IMG/VR virus record: IMGVR_UViG_3300006736_000074
Location: 1-27,624 of that record
Length of the DNA stretch: 27,624 nucleotides
Source: a virus
Strand: one strand, 5' to 3'
Shown here: piece by piece, positions 247 through 20,158 of the stretch
How positions within the stretch are numbered: the first letter of the stretch is position 1
Layout: every line of letters starts with the position of its first letter
Notes under the pieces: generated by a model
Database searches by the model: none
What the model was told of the DNA's origin: nothing
What the model saw: the letters and a program-made list of their open reading frames with translations, nothing else
Program-made: the position numbers and the translations under genes

Positions 247-699
247 TTAGCCTTTGAAGTTGGAAAGAATGCGTCCGATTGAGGAATCTTTATTGCCTGA
301 ATAATGGTCGCGCACATCAAGGGCTGTAACGCAACGCGCTACGCTTGCGCCTAAATGCTTTTTAGCACATACGTTGACGGATGCACCGAGCGCGCTCAAA
401 GCATTTATTTGAGTCTTGTACCACGCACAATACTCAGATGCCCATGCTTCGTACTTACCATGATATGCAAGTAATTTTGCATGATTAGCATCGATATCAG
501 CAGATGTGGTGGTATCGTTGAGGCGAGCAAGTGCGGGCTGCTTGGGTCGCAAGGTTCCAACGTTGTTAAGCGCTGAGATGATTGCAAGCAAATCGTTAGC
601 ACTTGGCGCAGGATTCTTAACAGTAACTTGTACCTTTGCTTTCTTTGCTTTGGTTGTGGTTTTGTTCATTGTGGTCTCTTTTGCTGTTGCAGTTGTCAT
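247..699 (-). CDS. Hypothetical protein with Lys/Thr-rich N-terminus
   Basis: I do not recognise this 150-residue protein. The N-terminus (about residues 1-30) is rich in Thr, Lys and Ala and looks disordered. The remainder is Ala-rich and probably helical, with scattered Cys and aromatic residues (a segment EAWASEYCAWYK). There is no signal peptide or membrane segment. The open frame extends upstream to 900, but an AAGGAG site at 707-712 fits the tandem ATG-ATG at 702/699; 699 gives the better spacing (7 bases). A sigma70-like promoter (845-873) lies upstream and a strong terminator (198-232) downstream, so it is probably a single-gene transcript read by host polymerase, perhaps early. It is transcribed away from the late block. 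An early host-interaction or regulatory protein is possible, but nothing in the sequence proves this. Confidence 0.7.
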   Translation of the reverse strand: MTTATAKETTMNKTTTKAKKAKVQVTVKNPAPSANDLLAIISALNNVGTLRPKQPALARLNDTTTSADIDANHAKLLAYHGKYEAWASEYCAWYKTQINALSALGASVNVCAKKHLGASVARCVTALDVRDHYSGNKDSSIGRILSNFKG

Positions 700-746
700 C
701 ATACAACTCCTTATATTATGTGCCATAGTTGACACGAGGTAATGAT

Positions 747-763: not shown

Positions 764-844
764 GATATTGTGGATACTACCATATTTATCGACAATGGCA
801 ACAGATATATCCAACTATTATTGACATTTTGGCAACAATATGCA

Positions 845-873
845 ATTATATTGATACAGGCATACTCTGTTAA
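845..873 (-). promoter_or_regulatory. Leftward sigma70-like promoter
   Basis: On the minus strand the -35 box is TTAACA (873-868, five of six matches to consensus) and the -10 box is a perfect TATAAT (850-845), with an ideal 17-base spacer (867-851). Transcription would start near 838 and run left into the gene at 699-247, giving a leader of about 135 bases. The -35 box sits inside the first CTGTTA(A/G)GG repeat (867-875), so a protein binding that repeat would compete with or contact RNA polymerase. Inferred by inspection only. Confidence 0.65.
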
Positions 874-939
874 GGTTCTGTTAGGTGGTACACCTATCAT
901 GCGCGAATAACGCAGGAATACCTAACATATACCTAACAG
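867..939. repeat. Mirrored, 11-bp-phased CTGTTAGG repeat array (operator-like)
   Basis: Two direct copies with an 11-bp period on the plus strand (867-875 CTGTTAAGG, 878-886 CTGTTAGGT) face two copies with the same period on the minus strand (931-939 and 920-928 region, ACCTAACA). The two 20-bp arms, 867-886 and the reverse complement of 920-939, agree at 16 of 20 positions and are 33 bases apart. A small palindrome (AGGTG-GTA-CACCT, 883-895) lies in between. A further CTGTTAGGG is at 1270-1278. One-helical-turn phasing and overlap with the -35 box suggest a regulator binding site; an origin or recombination site is an alternative. Confidence 0.55.
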
Positions 940-1096
940 CTTGCGCAGGAAGCAAGGGGCAATACGCAACACCTTCGAGATACATTTCGAGGGGGGGGGA
1001 GCCCCCAAAGGGATTACAACACCCCACACCCCCTTCCCCGTCCATTATCCAGCCTGATTTACCTTGTCGCCATTTTGTCCACACCTTCTGCTTCAC

Positions 1097-1153: not shown

Positions 1154-1173
1154 GTGTTGACAATTGGCGACAC
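1154..1173 (+). repeat. Left copy of 19-bp inverted repeat (near-palindrome)
   Basis: TGTTGACAATTGGCGACAC at 1155-1173 is an exact reverse-complement match to 25626-25644. With G1154 it forms a 20-bp near-palindrome around CAATTG with 8 of 10 half-site positions paired. As RNA it can fold with a G-U pair and one A-G mismatch. It contains TTGACA, but no -10 box follows at a normal spacing. It lies between the two rightward promoter candidates, upstream of the capsid gene. Confidence 0.8.
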
Positions 1174-1237
1174 TCTGGATCAAGGAAATAAAAAAATTAT
1201 TAAAATTGTTACATTTTCCTTGCAATGTATTGGCGTG

Positions 1238-1262
1238 TTAGTGTATTATCCCTATAGCAGGG
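1238..1262 (+). promoter_or_regulatory. Candidate phage (T7-like) RNA polymerase promoter B
   Basis: TTAG (1238-1241) and CTATAG (1252-1257) have the same 14-base offset as in candidate A, with matching T residues between and G-rich sequence after. It would begin transcripts about 165 bases before the capsid start, giving a leader that contains the hairpins at 1293-1406. CCCTATAGCAGGG is also a weak inverted repeat, so an operator is an alternative reading. Confidence 0.4.
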
Positions 1263-1292
1263 TAGGTATCTGTTAGGGTATTCCTGTTTGAT

Positions 1293-1406
1293 GAAGGTAA
1301 GTCCTTCCGCCTAAGCGGGCGAATTGAGCAGGGAATGTCCAATAGGGTAGCAGTCCCGTATGCGTCAGATGACATGGTGTCATTTGGCTTTTTTTCGTAT
1401 ACGGAC
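1293..1406 (+). other. Structured late-operon leader RNA
   Basis: Several pairings are visible before the capsid gene: GAAGG/CCTTC (1293-1297 with 1303-1307); CCGC/GCGG (1307-1310 with 1315-1318), the two sharing C1307; and a long stem of 1353-1364 with 1396-1406, which has 11 pairs, one bulged C (1357) and one G-U. The long stem encloses a second hairpin at 1366-1386. The capsid ribosome site (GGAG, 1413-1416) begins seven bases after the long stem. This could be a terminator/antiterminator leader, an RNase processing site or a stabilising 5' end. I do not recognise a known RNA family. Confidence 0.5.
1366..1395 (+). terminator. Terminator-like hairpin upstream of the capsid gene
   Basis: CAGATGACA (1366-1374) pairs with TGTCATTTG (1378-1386), including one G-U pair, around a TGG loop. 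It is followed by GC and seven T (1389-1395). This is a low-GC intrinsic-terminator shape on the plus strand, lying inside the larger stem 1353-1406 and 28 bases before the capsid ATG. It may stop leftover upstream transcription or attenuate the late operon. The long outer stem could compete with polymerase release at the U-tract. Confidence 0.45.
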
Positions 1407-1422
1407 TTTATTGGAGAATACA

Positions 1423-2334
1423 ATGTCCTCACAAATTACTACCGCTTTTGTAGAACAATATAAAAGCAATGTCATGAACCTGGTTCAACAAAAGGGCAGT
1501 CGCTTACGCGGTTGTGTTATGGTTGACTCTTCGGTTAATGGCAAGAAAAAGTTCACTGAACAGGTTGGAACAACGGAAGCCCAACGGCGTACATCACGTC
1601 ACAGTGACTCACCCCTCGTTAACACCCCTCACCTTAGACGTTCGTTGACCCTTGACGATTACGAATGGGGCGATTTGATTGATCAAGCAGACAAGGTTCG
1701 TCTATTAATTGACCCAACTAGTTCTTATGCGCAGAATGCGGCATGGGCTATGGGTCGCGCAATGGATGACGTTATCTTCGATGCACTTCATGGAACTGCT
1801 TACACAGGCGTTTCAGGTAGCACGTCAACCTCCTTGCCGGCAGGGCAAAAAATTGCAGTCACTGTGCAAGATGGTGCCGGAACCTCCGACGCTGGCTTGA
1901 ACACTGCAAAACTACGTGCAGCACGAAAGGTTCTTTTGTCGAATGAGGTTTCCCAAGACGAAGAACTGTTCTGTGCTGTGAACGCACAAATGATTGACAA
2001 CCTTCTTCAGACCACTGAAGTTGGAAGTTACGACTACAACAGTGTAAAAGCACTTGTTCGTGGCGAAATCGACACCTGGATGGGCTTTAAGTTCATCCAC
2101 TCAGAGCGATTGAACACACTAATCTCTGGTGGTGCTGACCAAGCGTGCATGGTATGGGCAAAGAGTGGTCTTGAACTCGGCATCGGTTCTGATGTCAAGT
2201 CTAGCATCGCACCCCGTGCCGATAAATCCTTCTCGACATACGTTTACTACTCAATGTGCTTGGGTGCTACTCGTCTCGAAGAAGAAAAAGTTGTTGAAAT
2301 CGCTTGTGACCCAACTGCGGGTATAACAGCGTAA
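1423..2334 (+). CDS. Major capsid protein
   Basis: Builds the icosahedral head shell. This 303-residue protein matches in style the podovirus capsid family of about 300 residues (Phage_capsid_2 type). The N-terminus is typical (SSQITTAFVEQYKSNV), followed by QQKGSRLRG, a TxxAQRRTSRHSD segment, TPHLRRSLTLDDYEWGDLID, and LLIDPTSSYAQNAAWAMGRAMDD. I recall this order from the family. The frame is open upstream from 1360, but ATG 1423 has GGAG six bases upstream and gives the family's usual N-terminus. It is the first gene of the plus-strand late block, behind a structured leader. Its scaffold partner is on the minus strand at 26206-27051, which is unusual. Confidence 0.93.
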   Translation: MSSQITTAFVEQYKSNVMNLVQQKGSRLRGCVMVDSSVNGKKKFTEQVGTTEAQRRTSRHSDSPLVNTPHLRRSLTLDDYEWGDLIDQADKVRLLIDPTSSYAQNAAWAMGRAMDDVIFDALHGTAYTGVSGSTSTSLPAGQKIAVTVQDGAGTSDAGLNTAKLRAARKVLLSNEVSQDEELFCAVNAQMIDNLLQTTEVGSYDYNSVKALVRGEIDTWMGFKFIHSERLNTLISGGADQACMVWAKSGLELGIGSDVKSSIAPRADKSFSTYVYYSMCLGATRLEEEKVVEIACDPTAGITA

Positions 2335-7186: not shown

Positions 7187-10146
7187 TGGTACAAATTGAA
7201 ACACTAGGCGAAGGAGAAGGTGAACAGCAGCGTACTCCACGTATGCCGCAAGGTTCTGCCTCTACCTTGCCAGACTTCGCTCAAGCAGCCGCAGCCGTTG
7301 GCGAGGCGGCGTCAGAGACGTACGGCCTCATAAAAGCTGGGTCGGACAAGTTGATATTGGTTGATTTAGAGAGGCAATACACCGAAGAACAAACGAACGC
7401 TATGAAGTTTGCTAACAATCTTGCTCTTGAAGCGGAAAAGTTGCCTGCAAAAAACGCAGTTGAGTATTTCGACCACCACATGAAAGAGTACGATGAGGAA
7501 CTGGCGAGCCGTGGGTTTGCGCCCATGGTGCGAGATAAACTCAAAGAATTTGTAAGTGAGTATACCGTCGATAAAGGGATGGCTGTACAAGCATCTGCGT
7601 TTAGGAGAGCAGAAACAGAACAAGAAGAAGCGTGGAAGGTCCAAAGCATTGAGATGATGGACGACTACATCGAAACAGGAAACACAATACAGTTTTTCAA
7701 AAACTTGGGCGAACTTTCCACTGCTATAGGCAACAGTTCGCTGTACGCAACACCAGACAAGAAGTTTCTTGCACAAAGAAAGGTCATCGCCTCGTTGGTG
7801 GGAGAGTTCGTCGGCCGAGAACTCGATGTCATGAAGGGTCTTACAGGTCAGGAACTTATAAATAAAGGTAAATCACTTAGAGGACTCATAGAAAGCGGTA
7901 AAATAGATCCTTCTCTCGTAGATATAGGTAAAATAAAACAGCAAATAAGAGGAGAGATTTCTAGGGGAATTGAAGAATCGGCTAGTATGTTGGGGGGTAA
8001 TATTGCTTTAGCACTCGCAAGCGCTCCACGAACTCAGAACCTTACAGAACTGGCCGCAGGGTGGGAAAACTTATACAACCTACGAATGCAGAACGGCACC
8101 GGAACACGAACCAACGCGGAGAAAGATGCTATAAAATTGGCAAAAGGGTATTTTGGAAACTTGCAGCTGCCTGATAACGTGACACAAAAAGAATTGGATG
8201 CCATCGCAAAAGAGGTAGAAGATTATTTCTTTGAAAAAGGCGTTAGTGTCGATGGGAAAAAGTATATCAATGAAGAATATGAAAAAAGGAAAAAAGGGTT
8301 TGTAGCCGCCGCAGAAGATTTGAGTGCTGATTTTAGCCGGATGTTGGACGATAACGCCTTTAACCCTGCCGCTGCTATAGCCCAGATTAATGAACTTTTG
8401 GGTAGAACCGACATTGTTTCTGACAGAATGTCAGACGCTAATATATTAGACAAGATATTAGGGGAGCCATTAGAGAACCATCTAGCACATCTGGGTGTAA
8501 GTTCAGGTGCTAGAGAAAAAACTGAGCGGATTCTACAAGTGTACAAAACGTTTAACGTTATATCGGATGAGCAAGGTAAAGCAAAAAAAGCATTGGACGC
8601 AGCGCTAGAGAGTGGGGATACAGAAGCAGAACTGATTGTTAAAGATGAGTTGGCCACTATAGGTACAAAGGGATCTATAAAACCCCACATTTCCGTTTCA
8701 CCGTCTTTGCAGCAAGAGCGTAAAGACCAAATAAACGCGTTGGGCAGTTTGGCCGAACAAATGGCCGCAATAGAGGCGTATGCAATAGCAGGACAATCGA
8801 CAGGGCTGGAAAAAAAATACTACGGAATATGGCTGAACAACGGGGAACCGCATAATATCTTTAATTCTGTAAGAACAATCCACAGGGCGGGTGGAAATAT
8901 ATCCAAGTTGGATTTGGGTGGCTCAGACACGCCTTTGGGATTCTTGGCACAATTGGCAATGACCGCCGCCCCAGACGAATTAACGCTGTTTTCCTTGCAT
9001 AAAAAACTAAGTACAAAAGGAGGAATACAGAGCGTAGCTGATGCTTTTTCATTCGTGTCAGACATGATGTCGGGAACACTTGACACAGTGAGGAGTAGCG
9101 CGTTTTCTGGCATAGTGGGGGATTTGCGAGAGACACTAAGAGAGGGTTTGCTAGAAGGCAGCGGTGACAAAAAGATTTTCCGCAGTGCAGATATAAACCA
9201 AATTGGACCACGATTAGCGTTTCACCTTGCTGCTGCATTAGAGGGCAAAGTAGATGTAAATAACTTAAAAAACCAAGACCCGACAGTAATGAAGGGAAAC
9301 TTAAATGAAGCGCTATCCACCGCGCTAGAGTCCATGAAGATTCACAATGACGTTGTGTCGGTGCCTGTAGGTGACTTTGGCAGGGTGAACCTAGATACGG
9401 TTTCGGGGAAAGTGTCTGACCTTGAAATGTCAGCCTTAGATAACTTCTTCAAGCAAACAGTTTCGGCAGATGAATACGTCTCTCGGGTATACTCGCCGCA
9501 ACTTACAGGCAGGGGCGTGTATGCCGGGGCTAACACAGACGACGACACAAAAATCTATATACATTTACATTTACTAAATGCAACTATGATGGACGTACGC
9601 AACGTATATCAAAATGCTGTCATGGATTTGCAAAACTACATAGTCTCAGACGAAGTGCAAGAGGGCAAGAGAACCCTTATTATCCCATTAGCGAAAGAAC
9701 AATCGGGGGGTGTGTTTGGATACATGGCGTTTAACATAGACGTAAACCCAAACACGGGTGTTCTAGGCGGCTTGTCGCCAATTCAGATACCAGACCAAAA
9801 CGGTATACTACGGGAAAGCAATGGTGTTGTTTCGATCGACATGGAGTGGAAACGATTTGAGGATATTGCTGAACAAAAACTTGACCACACACACTTGCAG
9901 GGTGAGATTGAGACGATCACAAAAATCAATCAGTCCTTCAATAATTACGGCATCAATAAATACGCGACAGGGAGCGGGCAAAAAATAAGTTTAGCCGCTG
10001 CGGTCGATTTGTTGGGCGCAGACGCGGCTATGCGCTTGGGAATCAACGCATCTATTGACGAAATAATACTTGAGATTTTAGACGATGCGGAAAGGTTAGG
10101 ATATACCGTGTTATCTGACCCTGTAAATACAGGAACAACTCCGTGA
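7186..10146 (+). CDS. Internal virion protein C (T7 gp15-like)
   Basis: A 986-residue, largely helical protein in the gp15 position between gp14-like and gp16-like genes (T7 gp15 is 747). In T7 this protein forms the periplasmic part of the ejection tunnel. It has no signal peptide, membrane segment or catalytic motif that I can identify. The N-terminal 150 residues are rich in charged helices (QYTEEQTNAMKFANNLALEAEK), similar to gp15-type proteins. The frame is open from 7078, but ATG 7186 overlaps the upstream stop (TAATG) and is the likely start. It overlaps the next gene by 4 bases (GTGA). Function is inferred from order and size; direct similarity to T7 is weak by eye. Confidence 0.7.
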   Translation: MVQIETLGEGEGEQQRTPRMPQGSASTLPDFAQAAAAVGEAASETYGLIKAGSDKLILVDLERQYTEEQTNAMKFANNLALEAEKLPAKNAVEYFDHHMKEYDEELASRGFAPMVRDKLKEFVSEYTVDKGMAVQASAFRRAETEQEEAWKVQSIEMMDDYIETGNTIQFFKNLGELSTAIGNSSLYATPDKKFLAQRKVIASLVGEFVGRELDVMKGLTGQELINKGKSLRGLIESGKIDPSLVDIGKIKQQIRGEISRGIEESASMLGGNIALALASAPRTQNLTELAAGWENLYNLRMQNGTGTRTNAEKDAIKLAKGYFGNLQLPDNVTQKELDAIAKEVEDYFFEKGVSVDGKKYINEEYEKRKKGFVAAAEDLSADFSRMLDDNAFNPAAAIAQINELLGRTDIVSDRMSDANILDKILGEPLENHLAHLGVSSGAREKTERILQVYKTFNVISDEQGKAKKALDAALESGDTEAELIVKDELATIGTKGSIKPHISVSPSLQQERKDQINALGSLAEQMAAIEAYAIAGQSTGLEKKYYGIWLNNGEPHNIFNSVRTIHRAGGNISKLDLGGSDTPLGFLAQLAMTAAPDELTLFSLHKKLSTKGGIQSVADAFSFVSDMMSGTLDTVRSSAFSGIVGDLRETLREGLLEGSGDKKIFRSADINQIGPRLAFHLAAALEGKVDVNNLKNQDPTVMKGNLNEALSTALESMKIHNDVVSVPVGDFGRVNLDTVSGKVSDLEMSALDNFFKQTVSADEYVSRVYSPQLTGRGVYAGANTDDDTKIYIHLHLLNATMMDVRNVYQNAVMDLQNYIVSDEVQEGKRTLIIPLAKEQSGGVFGYMAFNIDVNPNTGVLGGLSPIQIPDQNGILRESNGVVSIDMEWKRFEDIAEQKLDHTHLQGEIETITKINQSFNNYGINKYATGSGQKISLAAAVDLLGADAAMRLGINASIDEIILEILDDAERLGYTVLSDPVNTGTTP

Positions 10147-18178: not shown

Positions 18179-20158
18179 ATGCCTATACTTAAAACAGACA
18201 GAAAAATAACAATTACTGGCGACGGTTCAACGCAACTGTTTAATGTCTTTATGTCGGTAGAAAAAGAAGAACATCTTGTAGTATATGAAGGTGACGAAAA
18301 GTGCTTTTTGAATGAACATTACACAATACCATCCTTGGGATTCCCAAGTACAGAAATAACTACGGTGCAGTGGATTGGGAGAACCCGTTCTGGGAGAGAT
18401 TACACCTTTGTACGGGTGACACCAAAAACCCAACCAGAAGTAGTTGAGGCAGGCGTGGGCGGCATATCTGTTGAAAGAGGTATAAATAGGGTAGCAATCG
18501 GGTGTCAAGAGTCTTTGGTTGCAACAGAAGAGGTATTTGATGCAGATGGAGCAAGAATACAGAATCTTGGTACACCCCTGAACGATAAAGAGGCAGCCCA
18601 CCATCTGTATACACAATCCCGGTTTAGCAAAAGTGGGAATATCGCCCCGCCAATAGCAGATTCAGACGAAGATAAACTGTTTTATTGCGTTGACACAGAA
18701 ACAGTTGGATGGAAAAATGCATTCACTTTACCTACTGCTTCTACGGCAGATGACATAATGCGCGTCCAACAAGATGGTTCTATGGATTGGGAAAATTCAC
18801 CCACGTATACGCCCGCGCTGCCTGCTACGCCCAAGTATTTATCTGTTAATGATGATGGGTCAACCGTAGAGTGGCGCAACCTAGCCGACCTACCAGATCC
18901 AACCTTAGTCTTGGACAGGCATTGTATTGCTTGCCAAGAGGGCGGTTCGGTTGCATGGGAAGAGGTGCGAGACATTCCACCCTTGCCAACTTCGGACTCA
19001 TGGCTCCTCGCCGGCAGACCTCGTAAGTTTCTACTTCAAACATGGACAAAACATGATGCGGTTGCGGAAGAAGAAGAATTGAAGATTGCAAACACAACCT
19101 ATATAGAATCGAATAACCCCACAAACAATTATAGCTCTAGTACTCTACTAAAAATAAGCGTCGATTCTAGTGTTCAAAAAAATATACTGATGAAACAAGA
19201 TGTCAGTTCACTTGAAACGAATCCAAGCAAAGTGGTCAAGGCCACCTTGTGTCTGTATAAGAGAAATGCAAATAACGACTCTAACACCAGAACTGCTATT
19301 ATTGGAAGGTTAAAGCAAGACTACTTAGGGATTCAGGCCACATGGAATAACGCTAGAGATGGTGAGCCATGGAACAGTGGCGGGGGAGCGATAAACGATA
19401 TAGATTATGAAATCCATTGCATGCCTTTGGAACTCAAAGGAAAATCGCTAGAGGGCGCTGGAAAAATATACGAATATGACATTACCTATTTATACCTAGA
19501 CGCAATCAAAAACAGGGATAACGAGTTGCGTATTATGCTTTATGTAAAAGAACTAGACGACCCCAATGTTTGGACATACTATTGGAGTGATGATGCGCGG
19601 TCGGCGAGTATGCAACCATACATAAAAGTAACAAGTAACCCTGTGGCTAGAACCGCTAGATACTTTGGTGTCGACTGGGGAAAACACACTGTATACCCAA
19701 CACCTTCTTCGTATGGTGAGAAATGGAGAGATGAGACGGTAAAGTATTTAGCACAGCCAGAAGATTTATCCAAAGAATGGAACCCAGATAACGACAGACC
19801 TACTATTAGTGACTGGGAGGTGTTCAAAGAAAGGCATAATGAGTATTGGAGTTTGCATGAGTTTGTACCTTATGTATTTGGGGATGTTTATTCTTTTGTT
19901 AGCCTAAGTAAGCATACGGCTGGAGCGATTGCGCCTAACAACCATCACTATTACAATGTAGACCACTTAAGTTTATGGTCCTCGAATCCTAATAAACGAC
20001 TTAGGGTGGTTCCTTGCTTTTCATTCTTTGCGGAAGCAGAAACTTCTTATTCAGTTGGGCTACTAGCGACGTTTACTGAGTTTTCGTTTTTTTCTTGGTC
20101 ACCGACAGATTTATATTCTGATAATATCGGAGATTTGGATGGTACTGGCTGTGGATAA
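18179..20158 (+). CDS. Tail fibre protein 3 with DNRLRE/CBM96-like domain
   Basis: A 659-residue third paralogue and probable receptor-binding protein. It has an N-domain (ITGDGSTQLFNVF; TTVQWIGRTRSG) and Trp-containing shaft repeats at about 165-288 (PKYLSVNDDGSTVEWRNLADLP). A domain at about 300-488 follows the DNRLRE/CBM96 pattern: TTYIESNNPTNNYSSSTLLK, a KxxLMKQDVSSL strand, KATLCLYK, and LGIQATWNNARDGEPWN. That fold is known from carbohydrate-binding and secreted proteins. The tip (490-659) is unrecognised, Trp/Tyr/Phe-rich. ATG 18179 lies two bases after the previous stop; an in-frame TTG at 18155 is less likely. The 3' end overlaps TerL by 20 bases. Confidence 0.75.
   Translation: MPILKTDRKITITGDGSTQLFNVFMSVEKEEHLVVYEGDEKCFLNEHYTIPSLGFPSTEITTVQWIGRTRSGRDYTFVRVTPKTQPEVVEAGVGGISVERGINRVAIGCQESLVATEEVFDADGARIQNLGTPLNDKEAAHHLYTQSRFSKSGNIAPPIADSDEDKLFYCVDTETVGWKNAFTLPTASTADDIMRVQQDGSMDWENSPTYTPALPATPKYLSVNDDGSTVEWRNLADLPDPTLVLDRHCIACQEGGSVAWEEVRDIPPLPTSDSWLLAGRPRKFLLQTWTKHDAVAEEEELKIANTTYIESNNPTNNYSSSTLLKISVDSSVQKNILMKQDVSSLETNPSKVVKATLCLYKRNANNDSNTRTAIIGRLKQDYLGIQATWNNARDGEPWNSGGGAINDIDYEIHCMPLELKGKSLEGAGKIYEYDITYLYLDAIKNRDNELRIMLYVKELDDPNVWTYYWSDDARSASMQPYIKVTSNPVARTARYFGVDWGKHTVYPTPSSYGEKWRDETVKYLAQPEDLSKEWNPDNDRPTISDWEVFKERHNEYWSLHEFVPYVFGDVYSFVSLSKHTAGAIAPNNHHYYNVDHLSLWSSNPNKRLRVVPCFSFFAEAETSYSVGLLATFTEFSFFSWSPTDLYSDNIGDLDGTGCG

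Follow-up and report, generated by a model that had tools for sequence, protein, structure and literature searches.

A conserved array of 11-bp-spaced TGTTAGG repeats, predicted to be a protein-binding control site, between divergent operons of an uncultured podovirus clade

The window, the whole stretch of DNA analysed here (an IMG/VR virus record of 27,624 bases, 27.6-kb), carries the major capsid protein gene (1423..2334, plus strand) at the head of a presumably late operon and, transcribed away from it, a first leftward gene (247..702, minus strand) encoding 151 aa without a family match. The capsid protein matches Phage_capsid_2 and, among its best 20 matches, is approximately 50-54% identical to pelagiphage capsids such as that of HTVC010P. 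The large terminase gene is located at 20139, approximately 19 kb from the array described below. A sister record, G002 (37,688 bases), aligns to the window from its position 37318 down to 9901, with identities of 94.6 and 98.0% in the two longest pieces, 87-89% in three shorter ones, and some stretches unmatched. In G002 and in another relative, G001, leftward genes continue past the window start and encode a peptidase, a nuclease, an ERF recombinase, a helicase, a methyltransferase, and a Toprim protein, so that the array lies between the leftward and the capsid-led operons. The gene content suggests that the former is early and the latter late, which would place the array in the switch region of an uncultured, little-known podovirus clade. 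Neither nucleotide relatives of the window nor relatives of its first leftward gene were found among annotated phages, and a host search using the capsid protein in bacterial genomes returned distant relatives only (49-53%).

Four copies of TGTTARG occur at 868-938, organized as two mutually facing tandem pairs with the architecture TGTTAGG-N4-TGTTAGG and a period of 11 bp. Repeat 1 (CTGTTAAGG, 867..875, plus strand), containing the -35 box of a leftward promoter, is followed 11 bp further on by repeat 2 (CTGTTAGGT, 878..886, plus strand), while the inverted repeat 3 (ATGTTAGGT, 920..928, minus strand) lies 11 bp from repeat 4 (CTGTTAGGT, 931..939, minus strand), also inverted. An earlier sequence-only reading had described four copies of CTGTTA(A/G)GG; their positions and pairing stand, but this longer motif fits exactly in the first copy only, one copy starting with A instead of C, and the common core is TGTTARG. 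Direct reading returned the same coordinates for repeats and promoter as that reading had given, and the 20-bp arms it proposed (867-886 and 920-939, separated by 33 nt) are indeed complementary at 16/20 positions (80%). Lone copies, with one mismatch allowed, are unremarkable in number across the window (14 vs 10.7 expected). A quadruple arrangement of any core (period 11, inverted) appeared in 1/1000 shuffles of positions 1-1422 and in 1/60 of the whole window, figures to be read with the 11-bp period having been picked after the data were seen. In the 1200 bp that precede the capsid gene, two TGTTAGG-N4-TGTTAGG sites with at most one mismatch were observed, vs none in 200 shuffles.

The strong leftward sigma70-like promoter that had been reported to overlap the left repeat pair is present (TTAACA-17-TATAAT, 845..873, minus strand), with 11/12 consensus matches, both hexamers near consensus, and a spacer within the 16-18 bp range. 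The -10 region is identical at 9/9 positions in sister record G002. As the -35 box becomes CTAACA there, weaker than that of the window, the overlap of array and promoter is, on these sequences, a trait of the window lineage and not generally conserved; other relatives place their arrays elsewhere. On the rightward side, a late promoter-like match (TTGCAA-18-TATTAT) is found at 1220..1249 on the plus strand. Degenerate pairs abut the late -10 box in L013, L008, and L007, with 21, 51, and 61 of 2000 shuffles being as good, respectively, and are absent at this position in the window, L006, and L014, where the best match has 6 mismatches and 1338, 1010, and 1839/2000 shuffles score as well.

Conservation of the repeats in relatives, on which the sequence-only reading had made its proposal depend, was found at two levels. 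Between the window and G002, the 7-bp cores are identical at 26/28 positions and the remaining columns of 853-960 at 46/81 (Fisher p 0.0004). A TGTTAGG-N4-TGTTAGG pair with at most two mismatches is carried by 11 of L002-L017, the 16 nearest relatives by capsid, many of these 11 being near copies of one another. Of the 13 relatives whose sequence extends 778 bp or more beyond the capsid gene on its upstream side, the same 11 have the pair; L009, L011, and L012, with less than 350 bp there, are uninformative for this count, and L008 and L010 lack the pair despite sufficient upstream sequence. By our count, the pair occurs in six lineages (window/L002, L003-L005, L006, L007, L013, and L014-L017) and is missing from one (L008/L010). 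At one mismatch or fewer, the close relatives contain 16 matches at the N4 spacing and a single match across eleven other spacings tested, and in seven representatives, six of which carry one or two such sites, no site arose in 200 shuffles each. In 64 more distant relatives, no pair comes within one mismatch, and three of them share one common sequence with two mismatches. The pairs are inverted in the window and G002, L007 and L013 carry two pairs in the same direction, L014-L017 have one pair, and in L006, whose capsid is 87% identical, the intergenic region is a different one, in which a single pair precedes a small HTH_17 gene. This variation in pair number and orientation fits a DNA site better than an RNA one. 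Given the conservation and the fixed 11-bp spacing, the comparison supports well the prediction of a functional DNA site, and since relatives keep the evenly spaced repeats, the array very probably serves as a control site to which a protein binds.

Several other elements surround the array. A second repeated element, TTGACA..GGCAACA (818..837, plus strand), adjoins the expected leftward start and resembles an imperfect palindrome, TTGACAATTGGCGACA, at 1158..1173, upstream of the late promoter. Imperfect palindromes occupy a similar place in each lineage with different letters, such as TGTACAATTGTACA in L007 and L013, TTGCCAATTGGCAA in L008, TTACCAAATGGTAG in L006, and TTACCAGATGGTAA in L014, and a perfect form, TGTTGACAATTGTCAACA, precedes an early gene in G001 (L087 6164-6181). 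This palindrome resembles a repressor operator with exchanged specificity, while the TGTTAGG element stayed. Because one is exchanged and the other kept, the two elements may be read by two different proteins. A palindromic operator-like element is also present at 1064-1083. A G-run/C-run at 991..1006 recurs downstream of the array in relatives, and after it, at approximately 1040-1130, blocks of CCATTATCCAGCC and CTATAGGGG are recognisable by eye in several of them.

The capsid gene is preceded by a structured leader RNA conserved among close relatives (1256..1396, plus strand; start placed from the promoter-like site), ending in an intrinsic terminator-like site at 1364-1388. Its fold has a z-score of -4.2, and 13 of 35 predicted pairs show changes on both sides across six sequences. 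No Rfam match above threshold was obtained. A model whose input included the window and L014's record recovers, among 78 sources, all seven leaders that were expected, and matched none of 64 distant relatives (best E 0.12). The RNA may act in attenuation or antitermination. A fifth repeat copy at 1270, previously suggested to extend control to the late leader, is located with a degenerate partner (1260..1278, plus strand) inside this expected transcript. As it sits within the conserved structured RNA and TGTTAGG is missing from the leaders of L007, L008, L013, and L014, the copy is better taken as part of the leader RNA and supports the suggested extension of control only weakly.

With middling confidence, we interpret the array as an operator of the early/late switch region, bound head-to-tail in the manner of OmpR/ArcA-type regulators, and its position between divergent operons counts in favor of this reading. 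A putative DNA-binding protein, encoded by phage or host, would contact the TGTTAGG units along a single helix face, two of them per 11-bp-phased pair, as do head-to-tail dimers of OmpR/PhoB/ArcA-type regulators. Because the left pair covers the leftward -35 box in the window lineage, occupancy would be expected to shift the activity of this promoter and, in turn, might alter the early-to-late balance. The previous proposal of an operator for an undescribed phage regulator is plausible, and the conserved DNA site with its fixed spacing supports it in part. No binding protein was identified, and the OmpR-type domain PF00486 was absent from the 8 phage records searched, several of which are fragments. 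Among these records, HTH_17 was detected in that of L006 and in none of the seven others; in L006, a gene for a small HTH_17 protein lies at approximately 2800-2970, flanked on one side by the repeat pair and on the other by the late promoter. The early protein L082:3743-4471, which is conserved, is a possible DNA-binding candidate and serves as a lead only. It is 47% identical in L097, shares its N-terminal part with plasmid-encoded proteins (65 records), weakly matches a replication/partitioning family (E 0.0084, 16.6 bits vs a cut-off of 60), and has no relatives in annotated phages. Its fold was set aside as evidence, the prediction being poor (pLDDT 51.7) and the fold search empty. Among the literature matches listed, those for TGTTAGG being judged by title, none described the array. 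The conserved spacing offers a concrete DNA bait for a regulator search.

Similar arrays were also sought more widely. In viral contigs, GTTARG double pairs at 11 bp occurred in 98 stretches vs 23 for a complement control pattern; the 97 loci read form 36 clusters (33 outside ORFs), and the 23 control loci form 21 (9 outside). This excess is moderate and owes part of its size to simple tandem repeats. A position outside ORFs is to be expected, as the stop codons of GTTARG hit all frames at an 11-bp period, and was therefore not used as evidence of function. An enrichment of exact TGTTAGGGTNYTGTTAGG was considered and rejected, since its 19 stretches, 7 of them from the clade, compare with 12 for a pattern with spacing off by one base, leaving no excess outside the clade. 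In L150, 11-bp GTTAAG arrays lie at 9498-10064; this phage matches Salmonella phage Si3 and Felixounavirus records. That 11-bp GTTA(A/G)G arrays constitute a recurrent control element of many unrelated phages at early/late or terminase boundaries, read by one hitherto unrecognised type of phage protein that binds DNA head-to-tail, is a tentative generalization that we consider doubtful. If true, the array of the window would be one member of a recurrent class, and a binder type common to such arrays would point to an overlooked phage control or packaging device.

The main rival to the operator reading is that the small terminase binds the repeats as signals for packaging or concatemer processing, similar to cosB/pac or the CCTAAAG arrays at T7 ends, a possible but rather unlikely explanation. 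It arises from three unrelated groups of phages in which comparable arrays are found beside terminase genes: 11-bp arrays lie upstream of the large terminase in L162, L179, L203, L192, and L173, as well as in L089, and directly after it in the T7-like L194, all of these being phages unrelated to the window. In addition, the T7 core resembles CCTAACAG, and a G-run/C-run follows the array in the clade, as it does in L191, which is unrelated. However, the large terminase of the window is far from the array, the T7 repeats have, in our reading of the sequence, a period of 12-13 bp, and contig ends, which may differ from physical ends, do not cluster at the array. The related Skadi phages are reported to have a 125-bp terminal repeat that holds the terminase gene (PMC10504331).

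Replication-origin iterons, bound by a phage initiator or a partition-like protein, would agree with a single noncoding site between operons and with the plasmid-like N-terminal part and weak replication/partitioning match (E 0.0084) of L082:3743-4471. This explanation is improbable, as the copies are few, variable, and split into pairs, and no initiator was recognised beyond this candidate, whose fold, as noted above, gives no help. Least probable is that the phage exploits a response regulator of its host (ArcA-, PhoB-, or CtrA-like) through binding to the array, which agrees with the ArcA-box-like geometry of TGTTA-N6-TGTTA (11 bp centre to centre) and the lack of PF00486 in the 8 phage records but conflicts with the conserved GG after TGTTA, a feature that we take to be missing from the ArcA, PhoB, and CtrA boxes.

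Comparison with known systems places the array among several types of repeated site. It shares with the T7 terminal CCTAAAG repeats, which we take to be SRL/SRR, the presence of short repeats that contain CCTAA, in noncoding DNA beside early genes. However, those repeats have a period of 12-13 bp and lie at a genome end beside a terminase gene, whereas the array consists of inverted pairs with an 11-bp period, the terminase gene is at 20139, and the contig ends are elsewhere. The pac site of SPP1 is described as comprising three sets of direct repeats (PMC4737164), and such cosB/pac sites resemble the array in having direct repeats that overlap promoters; there, however, the repeats span the small terminase promoters and the start of the gene, whereas the array precedes a capsid operon. 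ArcA boxes are reported as direct repeats whose centres lie 11 bp apart, extra copies being common (PMC3798270). The array differs from these OmpR/PhoB/ArcA-type boxes in its TGTTAGG core and in the lack of PF00486 in the 8 phage records, and has in common with them direct repeats at the same distance of 11 bp centre to centre.
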